Assembly (NCBI GenBank): GCA_018654255.1
Contig: JABILX010000004.1
Coordinates: forward strand, 1 to 64,000
DNA from: Candidatus Peregrinibacteria bacterium
GTDB taxonomy: Bacteria > Patescibacteriota > Gracilibacteria > UBA1369 > LOWO2-01-FULL-3
DNA length: 64,000 nt
Direction: 5' to 3'
Below are positions 9,929 to 35,030 of the stretch, piece after piece; the first letter of the stretch is position 1, and the number at the start of each line of letters is the position of its first letter. The notes under the pieces are model-generated. The model made no database searches. It worked only from the letters and a program-made list of their open reading frames with translations, and was not told the origin of the DNA. The translations under genes and the position numbers were made by a program.

Positions 9929-11608
9929 CTAAAACGGTCGTCTAACCTTGGGGAAATTCATCCAAACAGGAATTCCACACCAATGAGCGCCCTCCGGACA
10001 AGGTCCTTCGCGCAGCATTTCACCATCCTCATCTCCACGAATTCCTCCCTGATGACGAGTCAAACAAGGTGGTCCCAAATAGCGCGCAATCCGAGGATGA
10101 ACCTCAGTAACCTGGGCGACCTCATCTATTGAAGAATTATATATTTCAAGCTGCGCATTGAAACAAGTGCGCAATCTCCATTTGTGTACGAAACCAAGCA
10201 AATTCCCGCTTTGAGTAAACCGAAGATTCAAAGCATTCGGCAAAATATAAACCGCATATTCAGGTGAAACTCCCATATCAATCAGCTCATTCTTCACCGA
10301 CCAAAGCATATCGCAAATTTCACGATACAATGCGGCAGCTTCTGCATTCTTCTCCACAACCTCAGGTACATGATAATCCGGCTTCATAGTATGAACCCGT
10401 GACAGCAAAGGTTTCGACGTCGGAGTAGTTCTATGCCTTTGATCCTGGCTATCCGCAGTATGAGTAATCTTTTTCTTGAATGTATAAGTAATGTGCTGCA
10501 TCGCCCGCATGAGAGGGGAGTGAGCGAAACTATTTAACGTATCGAGGTGATAACGATTTTTCTTGGGGTTCATTACCAAATCGATCGCCTCATCATCAGT
10601 CAGCTCATCACCAGAAATTCCAAGTACTTCACGAACAGCTCCCGCAAGCATCATCTCTCCGCTTCCCTGATAATTAACCAATTTTGAGATGCGACCATCA
10701 AGATCTGCATCAAATTCAGCCGCAAATTTGTCCCCATCAACTTTCGCAGACTCAGGCGTATTCTCGCCCCATTCCAAGGTGTCATTCACCGCCATCGGCG
10801 CCTCACCAATCATCTTCAAAAGGGTAGGGTCAATCTGATTAAGAGCCCCCATCATCCCATCAACAACGCGTTTGGCCTCATAAGGCACATCGCAAGAATT
10901 AACCAATCGAATATATCTCTGAAGTGTTATTGCAGAGACAGTATGATACAGAGTAGTCGAAGCACATATCGGCAAAACATAACGAGCATTTTCAATAGCC
11001 TTTTTCTCAGAATCAACCCTGATCTGTTTATCAGTTTGTCCCTTGATTTTGCCAATCTGACTCATCAACCGGAAATTATCCTCAATCAAAATCTCAGACA
11101 GTCTCTCATATGCTTGATATGCTTTGGTAAAAGCATTTTTATAAAGATTAGCAGCCTTGAATCCATCATATTTCGTGCCTCCAGACCCAGTCGTCCCAAG
11201 TCCAACCCCAGCTCGACCACCACTTCCTTCAGATTCAAATGGCGGAATGAAAACCTCAGGATCATCGAAATAAACATATCTCTGACTCTGTTGTTCGGAA
11301 TTATAAAAAGGATGACTATGCAAAAACGACCAAACAAAATGCCGACTCACCCCTGAAATCCCAAACACAAAAGTCGGATGTTGAAAAGGCGTATGATGAC
11401 CAGCCTCATATATAAGGCCACCGATCCTCTCACGTTGTCCCTCAGTCACCTCATAAGGCTTGATCAAGTTCGCGCTGTAGCAAGTTCGAGCACTCGCAAC
11501 AGCAATATCAAAAGGATCTTTCGTATAAGAAAGAAGTTCTACTTTCGGCTTCAACGGCTTTATTGTTTTTGGCTCTGGCATCGCGCACACATTAAATAAG
11601 CGAAGCAA
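9929..11608 (-). CDS. thyX: FAD-dependent thymidylate synthase-like, long form with two ThyX-like halves
   Basis: N-half 'HHTPFQHPTFVFGISGVSRHFVWSFLHSHPFYNSEQQSQRYV'; C-half 'THTADSQDQRHRTTPTSKPLL' with RHR motif. Confidence 0.8.
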   Translation of the reverse strand: MLRLFNVCAMPEPKTIKPLKPKVELLSYTKDPFDIAVASARTCYSANLIKPYEVTEGQRERIGGLIYEAGHHTPFQHPTFVFGISGVSRHFVWSFLHSHPFYNSEQQSQRYVYFDDPEVFIPPFESEGSGGRAGVGLGTTGSGGTKYDGFKAANLYKNAFTKAYQAYERLSEILIEDNFRLMSQIGKIKGQTDKQIRVDSEKKAIENARYVLPICASTTLYHTVSAITLQRYIRLVNSCDVPYEAKRVVDGMMGALNQIDPTLLKMIGEAPMAVNDTLEWGENTPESAKVDGDKFAAEFDADLDGRISKLVNYQGSGEMMLAGAVREVLGISGDELTDDEAIDLVMNPKKNRYHLDTLNSFAHSPLMRAMQHITYTFKKKITHTADSQDQRHRTTPTSKPLLSRVHTMKPDYHVPEVVEKNAEAAALYREICDMLWSVKNELIDMGVSPEYAVYILPNALNLRFTQSGNLLGFVHKWRLRTCFNAQLEIYNSSIDEVAQVTEVHPRIARYLGPPCLTRHQGGIRGDEDGEMLREGPCPEGAHWCGIPVWMNFPKVRRPF

Positions 11609-24899: not shown

Positions 24900-24912
24900 A
24901 ATGGTGGGCCTG
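24900..24912. repeat. Left att-like repeat (aatggtgggcctg)
   Basis: Identical to 34309-34321; followed by T-arm-like ttgggttagattttgaaccaacc. Confidence 0.7.
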
Positions 24913-25181
24913 TTGGGTTAGATTTTGAACCAACCATCAGGGCAATAGTATTATACCCTGTAAGACCAAGGTTTAGTAGGATTTTGCAAAAACAAGTTGT
25001 GGAGAAGGAGGCATTTAAAGCAGTTTCGAATTATAACCAAAAAGTCCTTTATTAACCTGAAAATGAGGGGGGTATGACAATCTAATATGATTAACCCGTG
25101 TGAGTTTGAACAAAGGGGTCTCGTGATAGAATTATGTTCTTATGCTATAATCCGGAACGAATAAACCATAAAAGATTAAAA

Positions 25182-25340
25182 ATGGCAGAAGAAGTAAAAG
25201 GGAATAGGAAAGATCTGGTAAAAGTAATAAAAGCTGTTTCAGGACCAAAACCACCACCAGCCAACGCAGCTGAAAACAAAAAAGGAATGAGAGACGCACA
25301 AGGCGACTTCGTAAGGTTCGACGAGAAGATAAGCGAGTGA
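25182..25340 (+). CDS. Small hypothetical protein (~52 aa)
   Basis: ORF track starts at 25134, but a TATAAT -10 at 25146-25151 suggests the ATG at 25182 (MAEEVKGN..). Confidence 0.4.
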   Translation: MAEEVKGNRKDLVKVIKAVSGPKPPPANAAENKKGMRDAQGDFVRFDEKISE

Positions 25341-25341
25341 G

Positions 25342-26100
25342 TTAAGAGGATGTTAAGTCATTTACTGCATCCAGGTACGCACAATAATCACATTCTTTGT
25401 CCGCTTTAGGAATTTTTTTACTTCTTAAACATTTGTAAAGATCTTTGAGTGTTCCTTCAACCCATTTGTCACTTCCTTTATACGAAATTAATGTAACATC
25501 GAAGTCTAGCTTTCCATCAAAGGCTTTCCTGTCTGCTTTACCGTTACAATACACGAAATAACCTGTATTTGAGACCTTGTAGCCGTTCTGACGAAGTAAC
25601 CATTGGTAGACTTCCATCTGACGTTTGTAGCCCTCGTGCCAGTCTTTATCAAGCACAGTGATGTCTCCTGCTTTTGCAGTAGCTTTGTAGTCCACAACAA
25701 TAAATTCTCCTTTTGAGTTTTGCCAAAGATCGTCTATAGCCCCGAAAACTAAAAAGTTAGTTTGTTTATGTAGATGTTGTACCCCAGTGAAGTTATGCCT
25801 CCACTTGTCCAGGTCTTCGTGCGGAATTGGCTTTGCGTCTACGCCGTACTTCTTAATCAGTGGATGTTGTTTGCCGTTGTTTCTATGTGTGTCAAATTCT
25901 TGTTTCAACAGAGTGTCTACAGCACTGTTTAACGCAAATGGGAAGCCTGGAGGTCTCCCTGTCCCCAGCCTTCTGTCTATATAAAAACAGCGTGGGCATT
26001 GAGTGAATAGATCGATTTTAGAACGTGATAGGTTGAAAGGCTCTTTACTTTTCGGGTCGTAGAGGTTGCGGGTGCGATGTGGGTTGTAGTATTGAGACAT
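25342..26100 (-). CDS. PD-(D/E)XK nuclease family protein (Cas4/RecB-like)
   Basis: 'SRSKIDLFTQCPRCFYIDRRLG' and 'VFGAIDDLWQNSKGEFIVVDYKAT' plus C-terminal Cys pair. Confidence 0.75.
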   Translation of the reverse strand: MSQYYNPHRTRNLYDPKSKEPFNLSRSKIDLFTQCPRCFYIDRRLGTGRPPGFPFALNSAVDTLLKQEFDTHRNNGKQHPLIKKYGVDAKPIPHEDLDKWRHNFTGVQHLHKQTNFLVFGAIDDLWQNSKGEFIVVDYKATAKAGDITVLDKDWHEGYKRQMEVYQWLLRQNGYKVSNTGYFVYCNGKADRKAFDGKLDFDVTLISYKGSDKWVEGTLKDLYKCLRSKKIPKADKECDYCAYLDAVNDLTSS

Positions 26101-26143
26101 ATCTAATTGTTATTTTTTAGACATCATAAGGCTTTCCAAGACA

Positions 26144-28648
26144 TTAACCTTGATTAACAAAACTCTCTTCATAATCTTTCGAGCTCAAAACTGTATCGAA
26201 AAGACCGACGTCTTCGTCTTTATGCTTATTTATTCCTATGTATCGCAGGCTAGAGTCTTCATATCGTTTGAATTTATATACAGCATCATTCATCAACCCA
26301 CTGTTAAAGACTCCAAGACTTACTAATAGTTCAAAATCTCTAACGGAAATCCCAGTAACTTTTTTGAATAATCCTGGTTCAAGTTTAGTGATGACATCTT
26401 TTAAACTACGCTCTCTGTAATCAGTTAAGTACATAAACACGGGGATTCTTGTGGCAAATTTTATTAGTTTTCCCTGAATTTGTTTTCTTTTACTTTTATA
26501 TTCCTTCTCTTCATCGGTGAGTTTTTTCTTTTCGCTTTTAGTCAAATCTCTTTCGTTTGCCTCTTTTTTCATTTTATTAATTGATTCAGTTTTATTAATT
26601 ATTGTTTCAATGTCCTGGTTCAGACTGCGAAACCCTTCAATGCTCATCAAGGCATCCATAGCCTCTTGATTGTTCATCAATTGTTGTAACGTATTATTAT
26701 CAACATTTACTAATAAAGCACTTTCCCAGCGTCTTGCCAGGAGGGTGGCTGTCGTTCCGCTCATTGCAATATCAAGGACCCCAGCTGGGTCAATCTCTTT
26801 CATTGAGCTCCCATCGTAACAAAGTACAGGTAGGAAACGTATAAATTCCGCCACTTTTTTCTCGGGATTGGATTCATTTACATTCAAACGACAACTGTAA
26901 TCAGCAATTTGTCTTAACGCTCTGTCTGGAGCAAAGTCAAATACATAACATTCTTTTTTCATTATTTCTTTCTTGTTGGGCGAAGTGCTGTCTGGATTTT
27001 TTATAGTCCAAGGCGTTTGTACTCTAAATGCAGCTTGGAAGTATGTTTCGGGACTGGATGAATTCCTCAACATAAAAATGCCTGTCCAAGGTGGTACAGA
27101 CACTCCTGTTGTCAGTTTACCGCAAGACAGCGTGATGGTCTTTGATTTCAATGGATTATCCATAGTATTGAATACCGGTGGCAATGCCTCAACGCCAATT
27201 CCTGCCTTTTTTCCAGCTGCGACTATAATCTCATAGTCGTTGTAAAACTTGTTTTGTTTTTGCCTCAATAAATTTTTCATTGCGTAGCAAGAAGCAACAC
27301 TCGGTAAAAACCAAAATGTGTGAGATAACAGGTTCAATAAGCGTACGTCAGAAAATGGCATAGGAGGCTTTTTTGCGCCCAATTTTAAGTTATCAATAGT
27401 AGTTTCTAAAAATCCTCCACGTATTAAATCTAACCATTTTTGGACCTCATTTTCATAAATAAATTTAGCCTTACCACCATCTCCACTGGCTGAAAAGAAT
27501 ACGTTTAAATCAAACTCATTAAACTCTCCTTGCATTGCAATTTCCCGAATGGAATCTGGTAATTGATAAGTGAGCATTACCATTCTTGGTAGGGATTCGT
27601 ATGGGTTTTCCTCTTTTTTCCATTCCGCTTTTGCTTTCTGCTCATCTGAATATGTCCAGTTATATACTTGTTCTTCTATAAATTCACCAGAAGAGATTGC
27701 TCTGAAAGGGGTTCCAGAAAGATAGAGATATGAACCCGTGGTAATAGGCATTATACTTTCGTCGAAATATTCGATCCCTTCACCTTCTCCAAACTCTATT
27801 TCTTCTGCTCCCTCTGCTTCAAAAAGTTCTTTAGCATTTTCGCGCCAAGCACCATAATGATATTCATCAAAAATAATACAATCCCAATTAATAGAATGAG
27901 CCCATTCGTTTTTAAGCTTTATTCCTCCCGCTTTGTTTCTACCTAAAAAATCTTGAAAGGAAGCGAAACAAACAAAAGGCTTACTATTGTCAATATCATC
28001 ATAAATAGAGCTACTCCTAGAAATAAACTGCCACCCCTGAAAGTCAATATGTGACTTCAAATCTTGTTCCCAAGCACTATGTACAGCAGGCTTGAAAGTT
28101 AGTACTAGTATTCTTGACCAGCCCATTTTTTTTGCGAGTTTATATGTAGCAAAGGTTTTACCAAAACGCATTTTTGCGTTCCAGAGGAAATGCGGTGTTT
28201 TTTGCGGATTTTCTTTCTTATAGCTTTTAAAATAAGTTATGGTTTTGTTTACTGCCTCTTCTTGTTCAGGGCGCATTTTAAAATCAAGCACTCTGTTTTC
28301 TTCATTTAATTCACCTCGCTTGACGGCAAGTACAGCAGCTTTAACATCCTTGACACTGCATTTAAACCACTCTCCATCAGGGTTTTTAATGCCTAGCTTG
28401 CGCAAATAGCGATGCACATCGTGATCTGCAAAAGTACTTCCGTCTTTGCGCATTGCTGGTTCCTCCAGAAGAATTTTATAAGGCAATACACCCGGTCTAA
28501 CAGTGGGGTATTGTTGTGAAACACGAGTCTTCACGTCAATAGTTGTGAATCCAACCTTCAACAACCCTTTATATTGTGGATTTGTATCTTCGTAGGCGTA
28601 TATCTTGGGATCTGCCTTTGGTCTAGATGGGAAAAATTGTTTGTTCAT
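26144..28648 (-). CDS. GIY-YIG/T5orf172-like domain fused to SF2 helicase; restriction subunit-like
   Basis: N-terminus 'KIYAYEDTNPQYKGLLKVGFTT..R..D.DVHRYLRKLGIKNPDGEWF'; helicase 'NAKMRFGKTFATYKLAKK' and 'CIIFDEYHYGAW'. Confidence 0.75.
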   Translation of the reverse strand: MNKQFFPSRPKADPKIYAYEDTNPQYKGLLKVGFTTIDVKTRVSQQYPTVRPGVLPYKILLEEPAMRKDGSTFADHDVHRYLRKLGIKNPDGEWFKCSVKDVKAAVLAVKRGELNEENRVLDFKMRPEQEEAVNKTITYFKSYKKENPQKTPHFLWNAKMRFGKTFATYKLAKKMGWSRILVLTFKPAVHSAWEQDLKSHIDFQGWQFISRSSSIYDDIDNSKPFVCFASFQDFLGRNKAGGIKLKNEWAHSINWDCIIFDEYHYGAWRENAKELFEAEGAEEIEFGEGEGIEYFDESIMPITTGSYLYLSGTPFRAISSGEFIEEQVYNWTYSDEQKAKAEWKKEENPYESLPRMVMLTYQLPDSIREIAMQGEFNEFDLNVFFSASGDGGKAKFIYENEVQKWLDLIRGGFLETTIDNLKLGAKKPPMPFSDVRLLNLLSHTFWFLPSVASCYAMKNLLRQKQNKFYNDYEIIVAAGKKAGIGVEALPPVFNTMDNPLKSKTITLSCGKLTTGVSVPPWTGIFMLRNSSSPETYFQAAFRVQTPWTIKNPDSTSPNKKEIMKKECYVFDFAPDRALRQIADYSCRLNVNESNPEKKVAEFIRFLPVLCYDGSSMKEIDPAGVLDIAMSGTTATLLARRWESALLVNVDNNTLQQLMNNQEAMDALMSIEGFRSLNQDIETIINKTESINKMKKEANERDLTKSEKKKLTDEEKEYKSKRKQIQGKLIKFATRIPVFMYLTDYRERSLKDVITKLEPGLFKKVTGISVRDFELLVSLGVFNSGLMNDAVYKFKRYEDSSLRYIGINKHKDEDVGLFDTVLSSKDYEESFVNQG

Positions 28649-30156
28649 AATTTTACGTCTAATGGGCGGACCATTGATTCAATGAAAGCATTTTCTTGTT
28701 CAGTTAAGCCGTACTTCTTGTTTAACTTCTCGTCCGACCAAGGTTCATCAAAATTTTGCATTGGAACAAAAGAATAAACCTTTTTTGGTACATCTTGAGT
28801 GTTTTTAATTAACAGAACAAGAAACCTAAACAACCTTGTGTGCATATAACTGATTACATTTCTTGCTTGTTTTTCAGATGGATAAGGTCCGACCACGATG
28901 TACGTTTCTGTACAGCACGTTCCAGGTTCCGCAAGGATTGGCCTACTCAATATTTGATGTGGATAAGAATCACCTCCAGGGCTGGCTTTTGGGACTATTA
29001 CTTTAATTTTATCAACTAAATTGTGATTCCTTTCTACCTCCTCAATATTTATATATCCACATTCACCAAACCTAAATAATTTAATATTATTTGTTTCACT
29101 TTTTTGTTTTTTAAAATCGGAGAAATTTGTTCCTAAACCAAATGGTTTTCTTGAACTCACGTCTTTCACAAAGGGGTCTTCTCTAAATGAACGGACTTTT
29201 TTAAATATACTTATGGCCTCGTTATATCTAATAAAAATATCGCTATTCTCCTCTAGCAGCGGTCTTTCAATTGTCTCACCTATCACACCAGATTTATGGG
29301 TCGTAACCTTGCAATGTCCTTTGTGGGATTTATCCCATAAAAAATAACAAATACCTCCTCTTATGTTCAATCCGGGAAAGCAATCAGAGGTTTCCGGGAA
29401 GTCGTGGATTTCAGCTATTCGATCATCATTAAGCATTTCTTTTCTAAATTCATCCAGCCCTTTTCCTCCTGCAAACCAACGAGAAGGGATAATCATCGTT
29501 AAATATTTTGGGTTTAATTTTTTTGCTTGTTGAACAAACTTATGATAAATAGGGGCAGCGCTTGTCCCAAAGCCTCCATCGCTCAATTGATAAGGGGGGT
29601 TTCCAACTATTACATCAAATTTCATATTAAATATTTTTTTAGGTGTGTTTTCGTGTATAAATTTGTAAGCGTGTGTTTCTAGTTCATCGTTACGATCGTA
29701 TACTTCTTTGCTTGCTCCGCAGAAAGTGCATTTTCCATTTTTCCAGGAATGTTTAACTTTTTCATATAAAATGTTTCCCTGTTCAGATTCAAACCCCTCG
29801 CATAAAGAATATATCCCATTAGCTGTTTTGCTACAATATATTGATCTACGAGACATTAGGGAGGTAAGTTCAGTAATAGCTATGCCAAACAATTGGTTTT
29901 TAAAAATATGGTTAATGCGTTCTTGCTTGTCTGGTATTTCTTTCTCTAAACCAATCTCTAATCTTCTGGCTATTTCTCTTAAGAAAATCCCAGATTTAGA
30001 AACAGGATCAAGAAAAGTTGAGGCTTTGTTACTCCACAATTCATTTGGCAATAAATCTAATATTTTATTTGCCAATGACGGTGGGGTAAACACTTCATCA
30101 TTGCTTAAATTTGCAAGGCAGGTAAGGACATCAGGGTTGTAACTAGGCTTGAACAT
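28645..30156 (-). CDS. Eco57I-like N6-adenine DNA methyltransferase with catalytic NPPY
   Basis: 'FDVIVGNPPYQLSDGGFGTSAAPIYHKFVQQA'; motif-I-like 'FLDPVSKSGIFLREIARRL'. 4-nt overlap with the next gene. Confidence 0.8.
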   Translation of the reverse strand: MFKPSYNPDVLTCLANLSNDEVFTPPSLANKILDLLPNELWSNKASTFLDPVSKSGIFLREIARRLEIGLEKEIPDKQERINHIFKNQLFGIAITELTSLMSRRSIYCSKTANGIYSLCEGFESEQGNILYEKVKHSWKNGKCTFCGASKEVYDRNDELETHAYKFIHENTPKKIFNMKFDVIVGNPPYQLSDGGFGTSAAPIYHKFVQQAKKLNPKYLTMIIPSRWFAGGKGLDEFRKEMLNDDRIAEIHDFPETSDCFPGLNIRGGICYFLWDKSHKGHCKVTTHKSGVIGETIERPLLEENSDIFIRYNEAISIFKKVRSFREDPFVKDVSSRKPFGLGTNFSDFKKQKSETNNIKLFRFGECGYINIEEVERNHNLVDKIKVIVPKASPGGDSYPHQILSRPILAEPGTCCTETYIVVGPYPSEKQARNVISYMHTRLFRFLVLLIKNTQDVPKKVYSFVPMQNFDEPWSDEKLNKKYGLTEQENAFIESMVRPLDVKL

Positions 30157-30823
30157 TGTTAGCTAATTTTAAAAAGTGAGTTAAAGGGAATTCCTCAATA
30201 GGTATTGGTATAAACGCTTCATCTCCCAAATCAGAAAATAGATTTGGACCATCTATTGGTTGATTTTCCAGTAAGTTTGCAAGGGTATAATCCCTACGTT
30301 TTATCATACTCCCATTTACGGCTGACCACTCGGAAAAAACAATTGGATGTGAACTTTCGCCCACCGTTTTCAGGGTTAAAGCATCTCCACAAAGAATATT
30401 TCTACTAATTATAAATCGGACAGAGATTCTACATTCTTCTTTGCATTTGTCTCTATAAAGTGCGGTATATTTTTCATCGAATATGTTAAATAGTCTTTTA
30501 CCGCAATCTTGCACATTATCCTCTAGGATATCCACTCCATAAATGCTTGAAATGGCAATAACTGAATACCTTTCAAATTCCAATTGGTTTCTCTTATAAC
30601 GTTTTTCTACTTCTGATAGCTTCCTTTTAAATATTTCAACGAGAAAATTACCTGTGCCACAGGCAGGCTCTAAAAAACGGGAATCGATTCTTTCCGTTTC
30701 TTGTTCCACTAGGTCAAGCATAGCATTTACTTCACGCTCGGCTGTAAATACTTCACCGTGATCAGCAATACGCTCCTTCGATTTAGCCTGGCTGACTGGT
30801 GTATTGTTTTTTCCACTCTGCAT
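30143..30823 (-). CDS. DNA methyltransferase-like protein with SAM-binding motifs, no obvious NPPY
   Basis: 'RFLEPACGTGNFLVEIFKRKL', 'IYGVDILEDNVQDCGKRLF', 'NILCGDALTL'; expected catalytic position reads 'IVFSEWSAVNGSM'. Confidence 0.72.
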   Translation of the reverse strand: MQSGKNNTPVSQAKSKERIADHGEVFTAEREVNAMLDLVEQETERIDSRFLEPACGTGNFLVEIFKRKLSEVEKRYKRNQLEFERYSVIAISSIYGVDILEDNVQDCGKRLFNIFDEKYTALYRDKCKEECRISVRFIISRNILCGDALTLKTVGESSHPIVFSEWSAVNGSMIKRRDYTLANLLENQPIDGPNLFSDLGDEAFIPIPIEEFPLTHFLKLANNVQA

Positions 30824-31068
30824 TATCTGGTTGTTATTAGTTGTTGCAAAAATTGGCCAACCAAACTGGTGTTATTCTACAAAGTAAGAGGAGAAACCGC
30901 AACCCCACCAAGGAGTAATGGAAAGATATATCCAACTTAACTGCGAGGATTTATTAATGTGGACTGATTCATTACAGTAAAGAATAATAAGAAATGGACT
31001 TTTTATTTTTCAACCACCGTCTTATAATAAGGCCACTAAATCAAGTTATTTTTACTTAAAGAAAAAAT

Positions 31069-31287
31069 ATGCCAGAACGCATCAATTTCTATCAAATATT
31101 TCGGATCGGTCCTGACGGAAGTATAGAGCCAATTAAAACCGTTAGGATTGGCGGTGCGCAATTTGGTCCAGGTGTTCGCTTTGGAAAAGGAGTTTCCTTT
31201 GGTGGCATAGATTTATCAAAATACATAGGAAGAGATTTGCGTGTGGAAGAACAAGATGGAGTTTTAATCATTACCGGTATTTATTAA
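31069..31287 (+). CDS. Small hypothetical protein (72 aa)
   Basis: Intact ORF starting the + strand gene run of the element. Confidence 0.6.
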   Translation: MPERINFYQIFRIGPDGSIEPIKTVRIGGAQFGPGVRFGKGVSFGGIDLSKYIGRDLRVEEQDGVLIITGIY

Positions 31288-31290
31288 ATT

Positions 31291-31644
31291 ATGGCAGACA
31301 AAGTAACTATCGACATACCGAAAGCCTCAAGCAAAGAAGTTGTTATAATACCAATTGGCGATCTTGGAGGAATAAAGAAAAAATTTGAAAAAATTGACCA
31401 GATTTTATTTGTCATAATAACTGTTCTCTTATTTTCTTTGGTCGCAATCATTGTTTCAGTAGTTGGAATATTTTTAGATCAAATGAGGTACAACAATGCT
31501 GCCTATAAAGATTATGCTGAAAAAATAGAAATAGTAGATTTTGGACAGGACGCTAATAATGAATTATTGCAACAGAACAAACAAAATCAGGAATTAATCC
31601 TGCAACAACAAGAAGAATTATTGAAATTGTTCGAAAAGCAATAG
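31291..31644 (+). CDS. Hypothetical membrane protein (one TM)
   Basis: 'ILFVIITVLLFSLVAIIVSVVGIFL' TM segment, Gln-rich coiled tail. Confidence 0.6.
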   Translation: MADKVTIDIPKASSKEVVIIPIGDLGGIKKKFEKIDQILFVIITVLLFSLVAIIVSVVGIFLDQMRYNNAAYKDYAEKIEIVDFGQDANNELLQQNKQNQELILQQQEELLKLFEKQ

Positions 31645-31671
31645 GCAAAACAGAATATATGGCAAGAAACT

Positions 31672-32073
31672 ATGAAAAAGATTTCCTACAACAAGCTTTC
31701 TGCAAGGCAAAAAGAGAACTATAATTTCCAGAAGATTTCCGCAATATTAGCTGATTATGGATTCAATACTCTACGCTTGTCGGATGATTGGCAAGGTGCT
31801 GATTTTATAGCTAATCATATTGATGGAAATACTTTTCTTAAAGTTCAGTTAAAGGGAAGGTTCACGATATCAAAGAAGTACATTGGTAAGGAGATTTGGG
31901 TTGGTTTTCCGCACAAGGGCGGGTGGTACCTTTATCCGCACGACATAGTCGTAGAAGAACTACGAGGATACTCAAACTTTGAGAATACACAGTCTTGGAG
32001 AAGGGCCGGGACAATACATAATGCCAATCCATCAAAAAAAGATTTAGAAATTCTGAAGCCATACAAACTCTAG
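31672..32073 (+). CDS. Putative PD-(D/E)XK-fold nuclease-like protein
   Basis: 'WQGADFIANHIDGNTFLKVQLKGRF' resembles D-x(n)-QxK of restriction endonuclease folds. Confidence 0.45.
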   Translation: MKKISYNKLSARQKENYNFQKISAILADYGFNTLRLSDDWQGADFIANHIDGNTFLKVQLKGRFTISKKYIGKEIWVGFPHKGGWYLYPHDIVVEELRGYSNFENTQSWRRAGTIHNANPSKKDLEILKPYKL

Positions 32074-32179
32074 TTGTTATAAAAATACTCTTCGATCAAT
32101 AGCTCAAGTAAAACAAATCTCTATATGGTATAATACAGCTGTTTTATAGACGCTTAACAAATCTATAAAGGAGTATATT

Positions 32180-32773
32180 ATGACTGTAAAACAGAAGAAA
32201 TTCTTCCAGAGCATCCTTGATTCTCCTAGCTACGCAGAAGCAGCTAGAAAAGCTGGATATAGTGAGAAGTCCTGTAGGGTATCAGCTTGTAGAAATATAA
32301 CGAAGTATAACGAATTCTTCGTGCGTTTAATGAGAGAAGCAGACATAGACACAGATTCGTTAGCAAAGAACCTGAAACAGGGCTTAAATGCAGAAAATGA
32401 AGGCATCAAATTCAGATATACAAAGCTAGCACTAGATCTATTAGAGAAAGTGTTGAATAATGAAAAATTGGAGGAGGAACTCGAGTATGATGAAGAAATT
32501 AAAGAAAAAACTTCAGAAGAGCATATGATAGATAGATTTATGTTTGCCTTAAGATTGGCGAAGTGGACTGAATCAAGTATGGCTTTTATTGATCTCAAGG
32601 ATTTGCCTGAAAATGTACAGATGCTCCAGCCGGAAGAAGTAGTAAAAAGGCTGAAAATAGAGAAGTATTTGACTGGAAAATCCAAAAGAACTCCAAAAGA
32701 AATGAATAGTTGCTTTGTACAGCGCGCGAAAGACAGCCTTCCCTCTAAAGAAAATAATACAACAAAAAAATGA
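32180..32773 (+). CDS. Terminase-small-subunit-like HTH protein
   Basis: 'TVKQKKFFQSILDSPSYAEAARKAGYSEKSCRVSACRNITKYNEFF' matches the terminase small subunit N-terminal pattern; overlaps the recombinase start. Confidence 0.6.
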   Translation: MTVKQKKFFQSILDSPSYAEAARKAGYSEKSCRVSACRNITKYNEFFVRLMREADIDTDSLAKNLKQGLNAENEGIKFRYTKLALDLLEKVLNNEKLEEELEYDEEIKEKTSEEHMIDRFMFALRLAKWTESSMAFIDLKDLPENVQMLQPEEVVKRLKIEKYLTGKSKRTPKEMNSCFVQRAKDSLPSKENNTTKK

Positions 32774-34332
32774 CAGATACTTCAGAGTCAGTTACGGTTA
32801 AAAGATGCGTGATATATCTTCGGAAATCGGAAGATGATCCCAAGAAACAAGTAAGATCTATAAAAGACCAGAAGAGGGAGTGTTTGATGTTGGCTGAAAG
32901 GAGTGGGATGAAAGTGAAAAACGAAGACATAATAGAGGAAGAACGATCTGCGAAACGATCGGGGAATAGATCTAAATTCACAAAGTTAATCGAAGATATA
33001 AGAAAAAGGAAAATAGACGGCCTAATTGCTTGGCACCCTGATAGGTTGGCAAGAAATATGAAAGAAGCTGGAGAGATAATAGATTTACTAGATGAAGAAA
33101 TATTAAAAGTTCTAAAATTTGTAGCACATCATTACGAAAACGACTACAACGGCAAAATGGCTTTAGGAATAAATTTTGTTATTGCCAAGCAGTACTCCGA
33201 TAAGTTGTCCGTAGATGTAAAAAGAGGAGTGGTGAGAGCTTTGTCGGAGGGGAAGTCATCAGGACAGTATAAGCCAGGGTATATTAGGAGCGAAACTACT
33301 AAATATTACGAACCGAACGAAGAAATGTGTGATAATAAAATGACTATGTTTGGATTACTTGGAAAAGCTTGGGCAATGAGGATTGATGGCAAGACTTTAG
33401 AAGAAATAGCAGAATATATGAATATAAACGGGTACAAGAGGCGACTTAAAAAGGCCAGGAAATATCAGGAGATTTCTAAACAAAAATTAGCAAAGGTATT
33501 CAAGGACCCATTCTACTACGGGGTACTAATGCAAGCCGGTCAGGAAGTTGATTTAAGAGGGATTTACGAATTTATCCCGATGGTAACGGAAGAAGAATTT
33601 TTGAAAGTTCAGCACTTTAACAGACCAGAATTAGAGGTGCCAAAAAAACATAAATACCCATTCAAGGGGCTAATAGTATGTAATAACTGTGAAAAAAATC
33701 TAACCGCAGGGGCTCCTAGAAGCCGAAGTGGAGAAAAGTATCTTCGATATTGGTGTGCCAACAAAGATTGTGATAATAAAAGCATTCGAGCAAAAGAAGT
33801 AATTGAATATATGGTTGCACTATTTGATAACCTCGAAACAGTAACAAAAGATCATTATGAAGAATATTTAAAAGGGGCAAAAGAATTCATAAGAAAAGAA
33901 GAAGGATCATTGTTAAATGAACAATGTCAGCTACTTAAAAAACAAAAATTTGCAGAAAAAGAATTTGAGGAGATAGTGGTAGTCTTAATGACCAAAGGGA
34001 GAGGGATGCAGACAAATGAAAGAAAGGCACTAGAAAACAAGAAAAATAAGTTAAGTGATAGCATCAAACAGTACGAAAGAAGACTCGAGAAACTAGACAG
34101 ACAGCTTGAAAAAACAATCCCAATGGACTTTGAAAGCTTTTTGAACACCCTAAAAACCTTATCTACAAGCTTTTTAGCAGCAGACGCTACAACAAAAGAC
34201 GAAATTGCTCGAAACATCTTTTTGAACCTAGGTGTGAAGGGTGGAGAAATCGCTACAGTAAGCGTAAAAGAGCCATTTAAAAGTATGGCAGAAAAGGACT
34301 TTGTCCTAAATGGTGGGCCTGGTTGGATTTGA
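32770..34332 (+). CDS. Large serine recombinase
   Basis: 'CVIYLRKSEDDPKKQVRSIKDQKRECL...GLIAWHPDRLARNMKEAGEIIDLLD'; recombinase domain, Cys zinc-ribbon (CNNCEKNL..CANKDC), coiled coil. Stop codon lies inside the tRNA 3' exon. Confidence 0.92.
   Translation: MTDTSESVTVKRCVIYLRKSEDDPKKQVRSIKDQKRECLMLAERSGMKVKNEDIIEEERSAKRSGNRSKFTKLIEDIRKRKIDGLIAWHPDRLARNMKEAGEIIDLLDEEILKVLKFVAHHYENDYNGKMALGINFVIAKQYSDKLSVDVKRGVVRALSEGKSSGQYKPGYIRSETTKYYEPNEEMCDNKMTMFGLLGKAWAMRIDGKTLEEIAEYMNINGYKRRLKKARKYQEISKQKLAKVFKDPFYYGVLMQAGQEVDLRGIYEFIPMVTEEEFLKVQHFNRPELEVPKKHKYPFKGLIVCNNCEKNLTAGAPRSRSGEKYLRYWCANKDCDNKSIRAKEVIEYMVALFDNLETVTKDHYEEYLKGAKEFIRKEEGSLLNEQCQLLKKQKFAEKEFEEIVVVLMTKGRGMQTNERKALENKKNKLSDSIKQYERRLEKLDRQLEKTIPMDFESFLNTLKTLSTSFLAADATTKDEIARNIFLNLGVKGGEIATVSVKEPFKSMAEKDFVLNGGPGWI
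34309..34321. repeat. Right att-like repeat (aatggtgggcctg)
   Basis: Identical to 24900-24912; overlaps the tRNA 3' end. Confidence 0.75.
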
Positions 34333-34353
34333 ACCAACGACCAATCGGTTATG

Positions 34354-34976
34354 CATCTCATCCACCACTTTCGTGGCCCCTTTCGGGTTTGTAAGCTGGA
34401 CTATCCCTTCATCCTGCGAAAGCAGGACGTCTACCGTCTAGTCTCTACACCTTCAACCGCCTAAGGCGGAAGCTTGGCTCGGGATTGTCATAGTTCGCTA
34501 GTTGCGAACCTTAGATTTCCCCGAATTTGATAGATTATACTTTAGAGATTACTCTCTAAGCAGCCCTTTGAAGCAAAACCGTATCGTGTTACAATCCAGT
34601 TATGAAAGAAATCATAAACTGTAAAATTTGCGGGTGTAAACTGGAAGGAAAACAGACATTATATTGTAGTACAATCTGTAAAAATAAAGCTCATCAGAGC
34701 TATGAAGCTCAAAAAGATAGGGGTCTTCATAGAAAAATAAAACTAGTGACAGAATCCGGAGGACAATGCTCAGTTTGTGGATACAAAAAGAATCTTGCCG
34801 CTCTCACATTCCATCATAAAGACCCTAGTAAGAAAGAATTCAAATTAGATATGAGATCTTTGTCTAATAGGAAACTTTCTCGGATAAATGATGAGCTCAG
34901 AAAATGTACGCTTATCTGTCATAACTGTCATGCAGAATTACATCACCCACAGCACGACTTAGAATCTACTTCCTTA
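34354..34976 (-). ncRNA. Group I intron (tRNA-type, IC3-like) interrupting tRNA-Ile(CAU)
   Basis: Core on minus strand: ..ggggaaatctaag..gacaatcccgagccaagc..ggttgaaggtgtagagactagacggt..gggatagtcc..gatgagatG| resembling the cyanobacterial tRNA-Leu intron core; exon ends in U, intron ends in G. Confidence 0.87.
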
Positions 34977-34991
34977 AGCCGACTGCTCTAA
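34602..34991 (+). CDS. HNH endonuclease, antisense to the group I intron (candidate homing endonuclease)
   Basis: 'QCSVCGYKKNLAALTFHHKDPSKKEF...KCTLICHNCHAELHH'; ORF ends 15 nt into the tRNA 5' exon. Confidence 0.85.
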   Translation: MKEIINCKICGCKLEGKQTLYCSTICKNKAHQSYEAQKDRGLHRKIKLVTESGGQCSVCGYKKNLAALTFHHKDPSKKEFKLDMRSLSNRKLSRINDELRKCTLICHNCHAELHHPQHDLESTSLSRLL

Positions 34992-35030
34992 CCCCTGAGC
35001 TACAGGCCCAAATTTTCAATGTGCAAAAGA

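Follow-up and report, generated by a model that had tools for sequence, protein, structure and literature searches.

Integration of a Peregrinibacteria island is predicted to swap the C-terminal tail of its own serine integrase

A 64,000-nucleotide stretch from the genome of a Candidatus Peregrinibacteria bacterium (GenBank contig JABILX010000004.1, positions 1 to 64,000; hereafter the window) contains a 9.4-kb mobile island at positions 24900-34321. Sequence features identify it as an integrative island with restriction-modification cargo, inserted, by this evidence, at the 3' end of tRNA-Ile(CAU) by its own large serine integrase. The geometry of its ends predicts that the integrated and circular forms encode different recombinase C-termini, as an earlier note on this DNA had suggested. 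Together with conservation of the tail, this leads us to conclude that integration swaps a selected C-terminal tail, the full-length recombinase being encoded only by the circle. We consider it highly probable that this swap takes place and that the tail is functional.

The recombinase open reading frame (ORF; 32770-34332, forward strand, 520 residues as integrated) terminates ..FVLNGGPGWI*, and its last 22 bases overlap the tRNA gene, antisense to it. The 13-bp sequence AATGGTGGGCCTG has exactly two exact copies in the window, the attL core at the left end of the element (24900-24912, forward strand) and the attR core (34309-34321, forward strand) at the 3' end of the minus-strand tRNA gene; the whole 1.24-Mb genome holds only this pair. 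When the frame is joined across the repeat, NGGP continues as VGLDFEPTIRAIVLYPVRPRFSRILQKQVVEKEAFKAVSNYNQKVLY*, a run of 47 codons at 24912-25052 with a TAA stop at 25053-25055; counted from its GGP, the detached tail occupies 24903-25055 on the forward strand. Between the upstream stop and codon 28, counted from the start of GGTGGGCCT, the tail frame holds no ATG, GTG or TTG, and its first 27 codons therefore depend on fusion with the recombinase for their translation. The coordinates, repeats and peptides given in the earlier note (both cores, the ending ..LNGGP-GWI* and the 47 codons) are exact to the base, and its claims that the last recombinase codons run antisense to the tRNA and that the extension lacks a start of its own, none being present before tail codon 28, were borne out. 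If positions and strands are drawn at random from this AT-rich window, ~24% are open for 47 codons by chance, so the open frame alone is not significant; its significance comes from conservation.

We sought relatives of the recombinase in 30 genomes of the family, 89 of the order and then at class level. Close relatives were found in genomes G019 (52% identity), G067 (52%), G075 (50%) and G001 (42%), and the class-level search added G245 and G327. In the close relatives' elements the recombinase stop sits antisense to a tRNA 3' end, the tRNA being split by an intron in G067 and G075, and many relatives at ~30% identity likewise stop antisense to tRNA-Gly, Gln, Ser or His. Because the stops lie antisense to tRNA, the residues that follow GGP (GWI, GRI, GWT or GRT) are tRNA sequence and not the enzyme's choice.

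The tail is conserved between elements. A tail-only query of 50 residues was run with tblastn over the order's 89 genomes; setting aside the genome that supplied the query, the top match was G067:C43:3187-3336, which covers residues 1-50 without gaps (E 6e-4). This match is the attL of the G067 element, whose recombinase lies further downstream on that contig; that enzyme, 52% identical to the window's, terminates LNGGPGWI*. A third tail stands at the attL of the G019 element (L060:1069); it has 48 residues, is alike at its start and end and requires a two-residue gap against the window tail. Aligned, the three read GGPVGLDFEPTIRAIVLYPVRPRFSRILQKQVVEKEAFKAVSNYNQKVLY, GGPVALDFELFIKSLFKHPVPARFYTQVTPVTSKEYKLRNITHYSSNVVY and GGPSKVDFEHIVRAMIKHKPVHNLSFKITSIIPKKPTKTNKYNAEIYY, and all end in Y-x5-Y-stop. 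The earlier claim thus survives a search for homologues carrying the extension, the tails of G067 and G019 matching that of the window in length and end. Other weak tail matches in other genomes were judged to be chance, some of them being tRNA-Gly antisense.

The first ten tail residues overlap the att half-site, and conservation was therefore scored from codon 11 onward. There the window and G067 tails have a BLOSUM62 score of 38, against a codon-shuffle mean of -29 (standard deviation 13.5), and none of 20,000 shuffles did as well; both remaining frames contain stops and have scores of -39 and -46. Identity by codon position is 35/55/38%, highest at the second position, and DNA identity beyond the half-site is ~43%. 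None of 5,000 shuffles reached the score of the window and G019 tails, and for G067 and G019 the p value is 0.0012. Judged by these comparisons, it is the protein sequence and not the DNA that the three tails conserve past the att half-site. This conservation, together with the absent start, is our main argument that a joined form exists and matters.

The attachment sites have the form expected of the enzyme family. The GAAC of the tRNA (attB) arm (34331-34334) stands 19 bases past the start of GGTGGGCCT, whereas that of the element (attP) arm (24927-24930, forward strand, in the P' arm) stands 24 bases past that start, 5 bp further out. Right-hand arms only were compared, and in these the 5-bp offset recurs in G067, G019 and the tRNA-His relative in G026; it is 4 bp in G001. 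For the LI integrase, the zinc-domain motif lies 5 bp closer to the centre in attB (PMC3783163). Because the offset matches this rule, it is evidence for a true pair of serine-integrase sites, attP and attB, that cross over within the core they have in common. The enzyme itself has a resolvase-type catalytic domain (PF00239, E 1.4e-20), with S20 invariant in a six-sequence alignment, and matches to the recombinase domain and zinc ribbon (PF07508 and PF13408); long helices at 360-448 in an AlphaFold model correspond to the coiled coil. In this model of the integrated form, which is of modest confidence (mean predicted local distance difference test score 65), the fold ends near residue 508 and residues 509-520 are disordered. 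By the model and the family matches, the catalytic, recombinase, zinc and coiled-coil parts all precede residue 509. The swap alters only what follows them, and we therefore expect catalysis to be retained by the integrated enzyme, as it is in phage Mx8 (PMC6070905).

The target gene is interrupted. Division by a group I intron hid it from ARAGORN, which called no tRNA anywhere in the window: Rfam RF00028 matches at 34374-34587 on the minus strand, and splicing the minus-strand exons (34977-35009 and 34311-34353) gives a 76-nucleotide tRNA with a CAU anticodon. From its sequence we take it to be tRNA-Ile(CAU); the tRNA genes typed in the genome, which cover all but the last few matches, hold no second tRNA-Ile, which fits this assignment. 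The gene as a whole, the attB target, spans 34311-35009 on the minus strand. At one end of the island stands this intact tRNA gene and at the other a displaced 3' fragment, and the island carries an integrase.

We propose that attP spans the 3' end of the integrase gene, such that in the free circle the gene would read through attP into the conserved tail and yield an enzyme of 564 residues (517 to GGP plus 47). Recombination inside GGTGGGCCT would strand the tail, now lacking a start, at attL and cap the resident gene with three codons (GWI) from the tRNA antisense strand. The tail probably serves some purpose while the element is a free circle. Most likely it would favour, or be needed for, attP x attB integration, or would bind a partner such as the neighbouring 52-residue protein; integration would remove it and leave a tail-less enzyme for excision. 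We infer both that excision still occurs and that the tail's action is confined to the circle. The earlier note had raised a possible directionality or expression switch; a role of the tail in directionality specifically is a serious possibility, at somewhat less than an even chance. We give similar, tentative credence to the fuller proposal that integration converts the enzyme from a tailed, integration-proficient form to a tail-less form capped by tRNA antisense, a built-in directionality switch that would also separate the enzyme from a small partner gene downstream.

Several observations weigh against this proposal. Only three long tails are known, and the AlphaFold model of the tail is helical but of low confidence. 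In G001, whose recombinase is 42% identical, the attL tail has only 9 residues, a convergent cargo gene follows close behind it and no small gene was seen; the long tail is thus not kept in every lineage. A second att copy in G019, at 10022, is frameshifted, and one in G067, at 2168, has an 11-residue tail and lies beside a 1-kb stretch without a recombinase; these look like decayed or satellite copies. No contig with a joined full-length gene was seen for this subfamily.

Other explanations of the tail can be set against the same evidence. It could be a stability signal, the circle's long form being short-lived and the integrated short form stable, or the reverse, as for the repressor of mycobacteriophage BPs. 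The geometry is that of BPs gp33, with its forms of 136 and 103 residues (PMC4557955), and the last residues of the tails (VLY, VVY and IYY) are hydrophobic; yet conservation runs along the whole tail and not its end alone, and the host transfer-messenger RNA (tmRNA) tag ends ..SPVAVAA, unlike the tail. We regard this explanation as rather unlikely. Its particular version in which the tail mimics the ssrA tag found no support, the tails ending KVLY, NVVY and EIYY against ..VAVAA in the host tag. It is improbable that the tail is incidental or weakly constrained, with read-through past attP tolerated, tails varying by subfamily and the enzyme indifferent to them: the short or different tails of G001 and of the tRNA-His relative in G026 would fit, but the protein-level constraint holds across three tRNA-Ile elements whose recombinases are ~50% identical.

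The conservation might instead act on DNA only, as an attP P' arm or a regulatory site in which the open frame is accidental. Such an account could draw on the first ~30 bases, which are more similar at the DNA level and include the GATTTTGAAC arm motif, and on the chance frequency of open frames given above. It does not explain why, at the low DNA identity found beyond the half-site, conservation peaks at the second codon position and a positive score is confined to the recombinase frame, nor why the stop falls at the same place in three elements, and we hold it to be very unlikely. Although the frame is open in the integrated form, a separate gene expressed from attL and including the 47-codon stretch is extremely unlikely: conserved residues precede any usable start, the window tail offering none before codon 28, and in G067 an in-frame stop lies two codons before GGT. 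The tail swap with a functional tail is the reading we retain.

A search for attL in G075, G245 and G327 did not find one. A scan of genome contigs for the attP' arm returned only the G019 and G067 elements, plus unrelated matches, and a single-sequence scan of genome contigs found nothing. In phage and plasmid collections there were only distant recombinases, below 30% identity among the matches listed. The contig G012:C53 (L063, 10189 bp, with a 141-bp terminal overlap) probably represents a free circle from a distant subfamily; for that distance, and because its recombinase seems to be frameshifted, we did not count it as proof. Tandem or nested att copies occur in G019 (L060:1069-12102) and G067 (L104:2168-7271), and the 1-kb stretch of G067, with att-like ends and no recombinase, is perhaps a satellite mobilised in trans. 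In the tRNA-His relative of G026 (L071:16127-16229; reverse-strand 3772 and 3874), two att cores lie 102 bp apart at the left end, both in frame with the recombinase and reading on for 55 and 21 residues. The genome of the window also carries a second, distant serine recombinase (L073:16268-17902, contig C1 at about 106-108 kb) with 28% identity, whose end reads into tRNA-His.

The direction of serine integrases is normally set by a separate directionality factor. Directly after the tail stands a conserved 52-residue gene (25182-25340, forward strand), and genes of 49-52 residues occupy the same position in G067 and G019, 19 to 126 bp past the tail stop. The window gene has no Pfam or PHROG family; by position only, it is a candidate directionality factor. 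Upstream, a terminase-small-subunit-type gene (32180-32773, forward strand) overlaps the recombinase start, and this partner is conserved in G067 and G019. A circle would carry, one after another, the terminase-small-type gene, the tailed recombinase and the small gene, a module that integration would cut at the tail.

Between these genes lies the cargo, a split type IIG-like restriction-modification system with a Cas4/PD-(D/E)XK nuclease. On the minus strand are the PD-(D/E)XK or Cas4-like nuclease (25342-26100), a type IIG-like restriction gene with T5orf172 (GIY-YIG-like) and type III helicase domains (26144-28648), an Eco57I-type DNA methylase (28645-30156) and an MmeI-like methyltransferase domain (30143-30823). 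Two forward-strand genes have no function assigned: one of 117 residues with one probable membrane segment by eye (31291-31644), and one of 133 residues with a weak DUF4365-like match below cut-off (31672-32073). Because the cargo is a restriction-modification system and a nuclease, the element is probably an anti-phage island. The group I intron of the target (34354-34976, minus strand, 623 nucleotides) lies in the anticodon loop of the tRNA, immediately before the anticodon; a group I intron also stands at this tRNA in G067 and G075, but not in G019 or G001. An HNH-like ORF (34602-34991, forward strand) lies opposite the intron, and its end overlaps exon 1.

Serine integrases are in standard use for inserting DNA in one direction. 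If the swap is real, the island would offer a natural enzyme whose C-terminus is changed by its own reaction, a self-contained switch. A precedent is the integrase of Myxococcus phage Mx8, a tyrosine integrase. A listing in PMC4383910 also points to that family. In Mx8, attP lies inside int, and integration makes a new int 3' end that does not inactivate the enzyme but changes its behaviour (PMC6070905). The island is alike in that, by sequence geometry, integration would alter the C-terminus and keep the catalytic part; unlike Mx8, its enzyme belongs to the serine family, so it is not a member, and homologous tails could be compared across elements. In the integration-dependent immunity of BPs, attP lies inside the repressor gene and integration removes a 33-residue C-terminal extension (PMC4557955). 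The island shares an attP within a gene and the predicted removal of a C-terminal extension, but the BPs gene is a repressor whose extension has an ssrA-like tag, whereas the island gene is a recombinase in which no such tag was seen. Archaeal SSV-type suicidal integrases likewise have the recombination site within the integrase gene; one review describes self-disrupting recombinases as exclusively archaeal (PMC8371274). Those genes are split in a way that separates off the catalytic part, whereas the island recombinase keeps all its matched domains together.

Among serine recombinases, Ralstonia phage RSM (PMC3218068) and Mycobacterium actinomycete integrative and conjugative elements (AICEs; PMC3816273) have a short core that matches the 3' end of a tRNA exactly. 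Like RSM, the island has a serine recombinase at a tRNA 3' end and a short core, of 13 nucleotides; unlike it, the RSM attP lies between ORF14 and ORF15, and the enzyme is small and resolvase-like. For neither RSM nor the AICEs do the available portions of the sources mention a conserved state-dependent tail. The island enzyme resembles the Listeria LI/A118 large serine integrase in its domain plan and in the 5-bp zinc-domain motif offset between attB and attP (PMC3783163), but the available portion of that source mentions no state-dependent C-terminus. In the literature searched, which is only part of the whole, we found no large serine integrase described as having a conserved tail that depends on the integration state. 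According to a 2014 paper (PMC4383910), no serine integrase was known to use a tRNA gene, and another describes such cases as rare (PMC3218068); the island adds to these few reports, and the arrangement is frequent among relatives in Peregrinibacteria and their class. An attP inside the integrase gene is thus already known from Mx8 and the archaeal SSV-type elements, and what would be new here is a serine-integrase version with a conserved tail.
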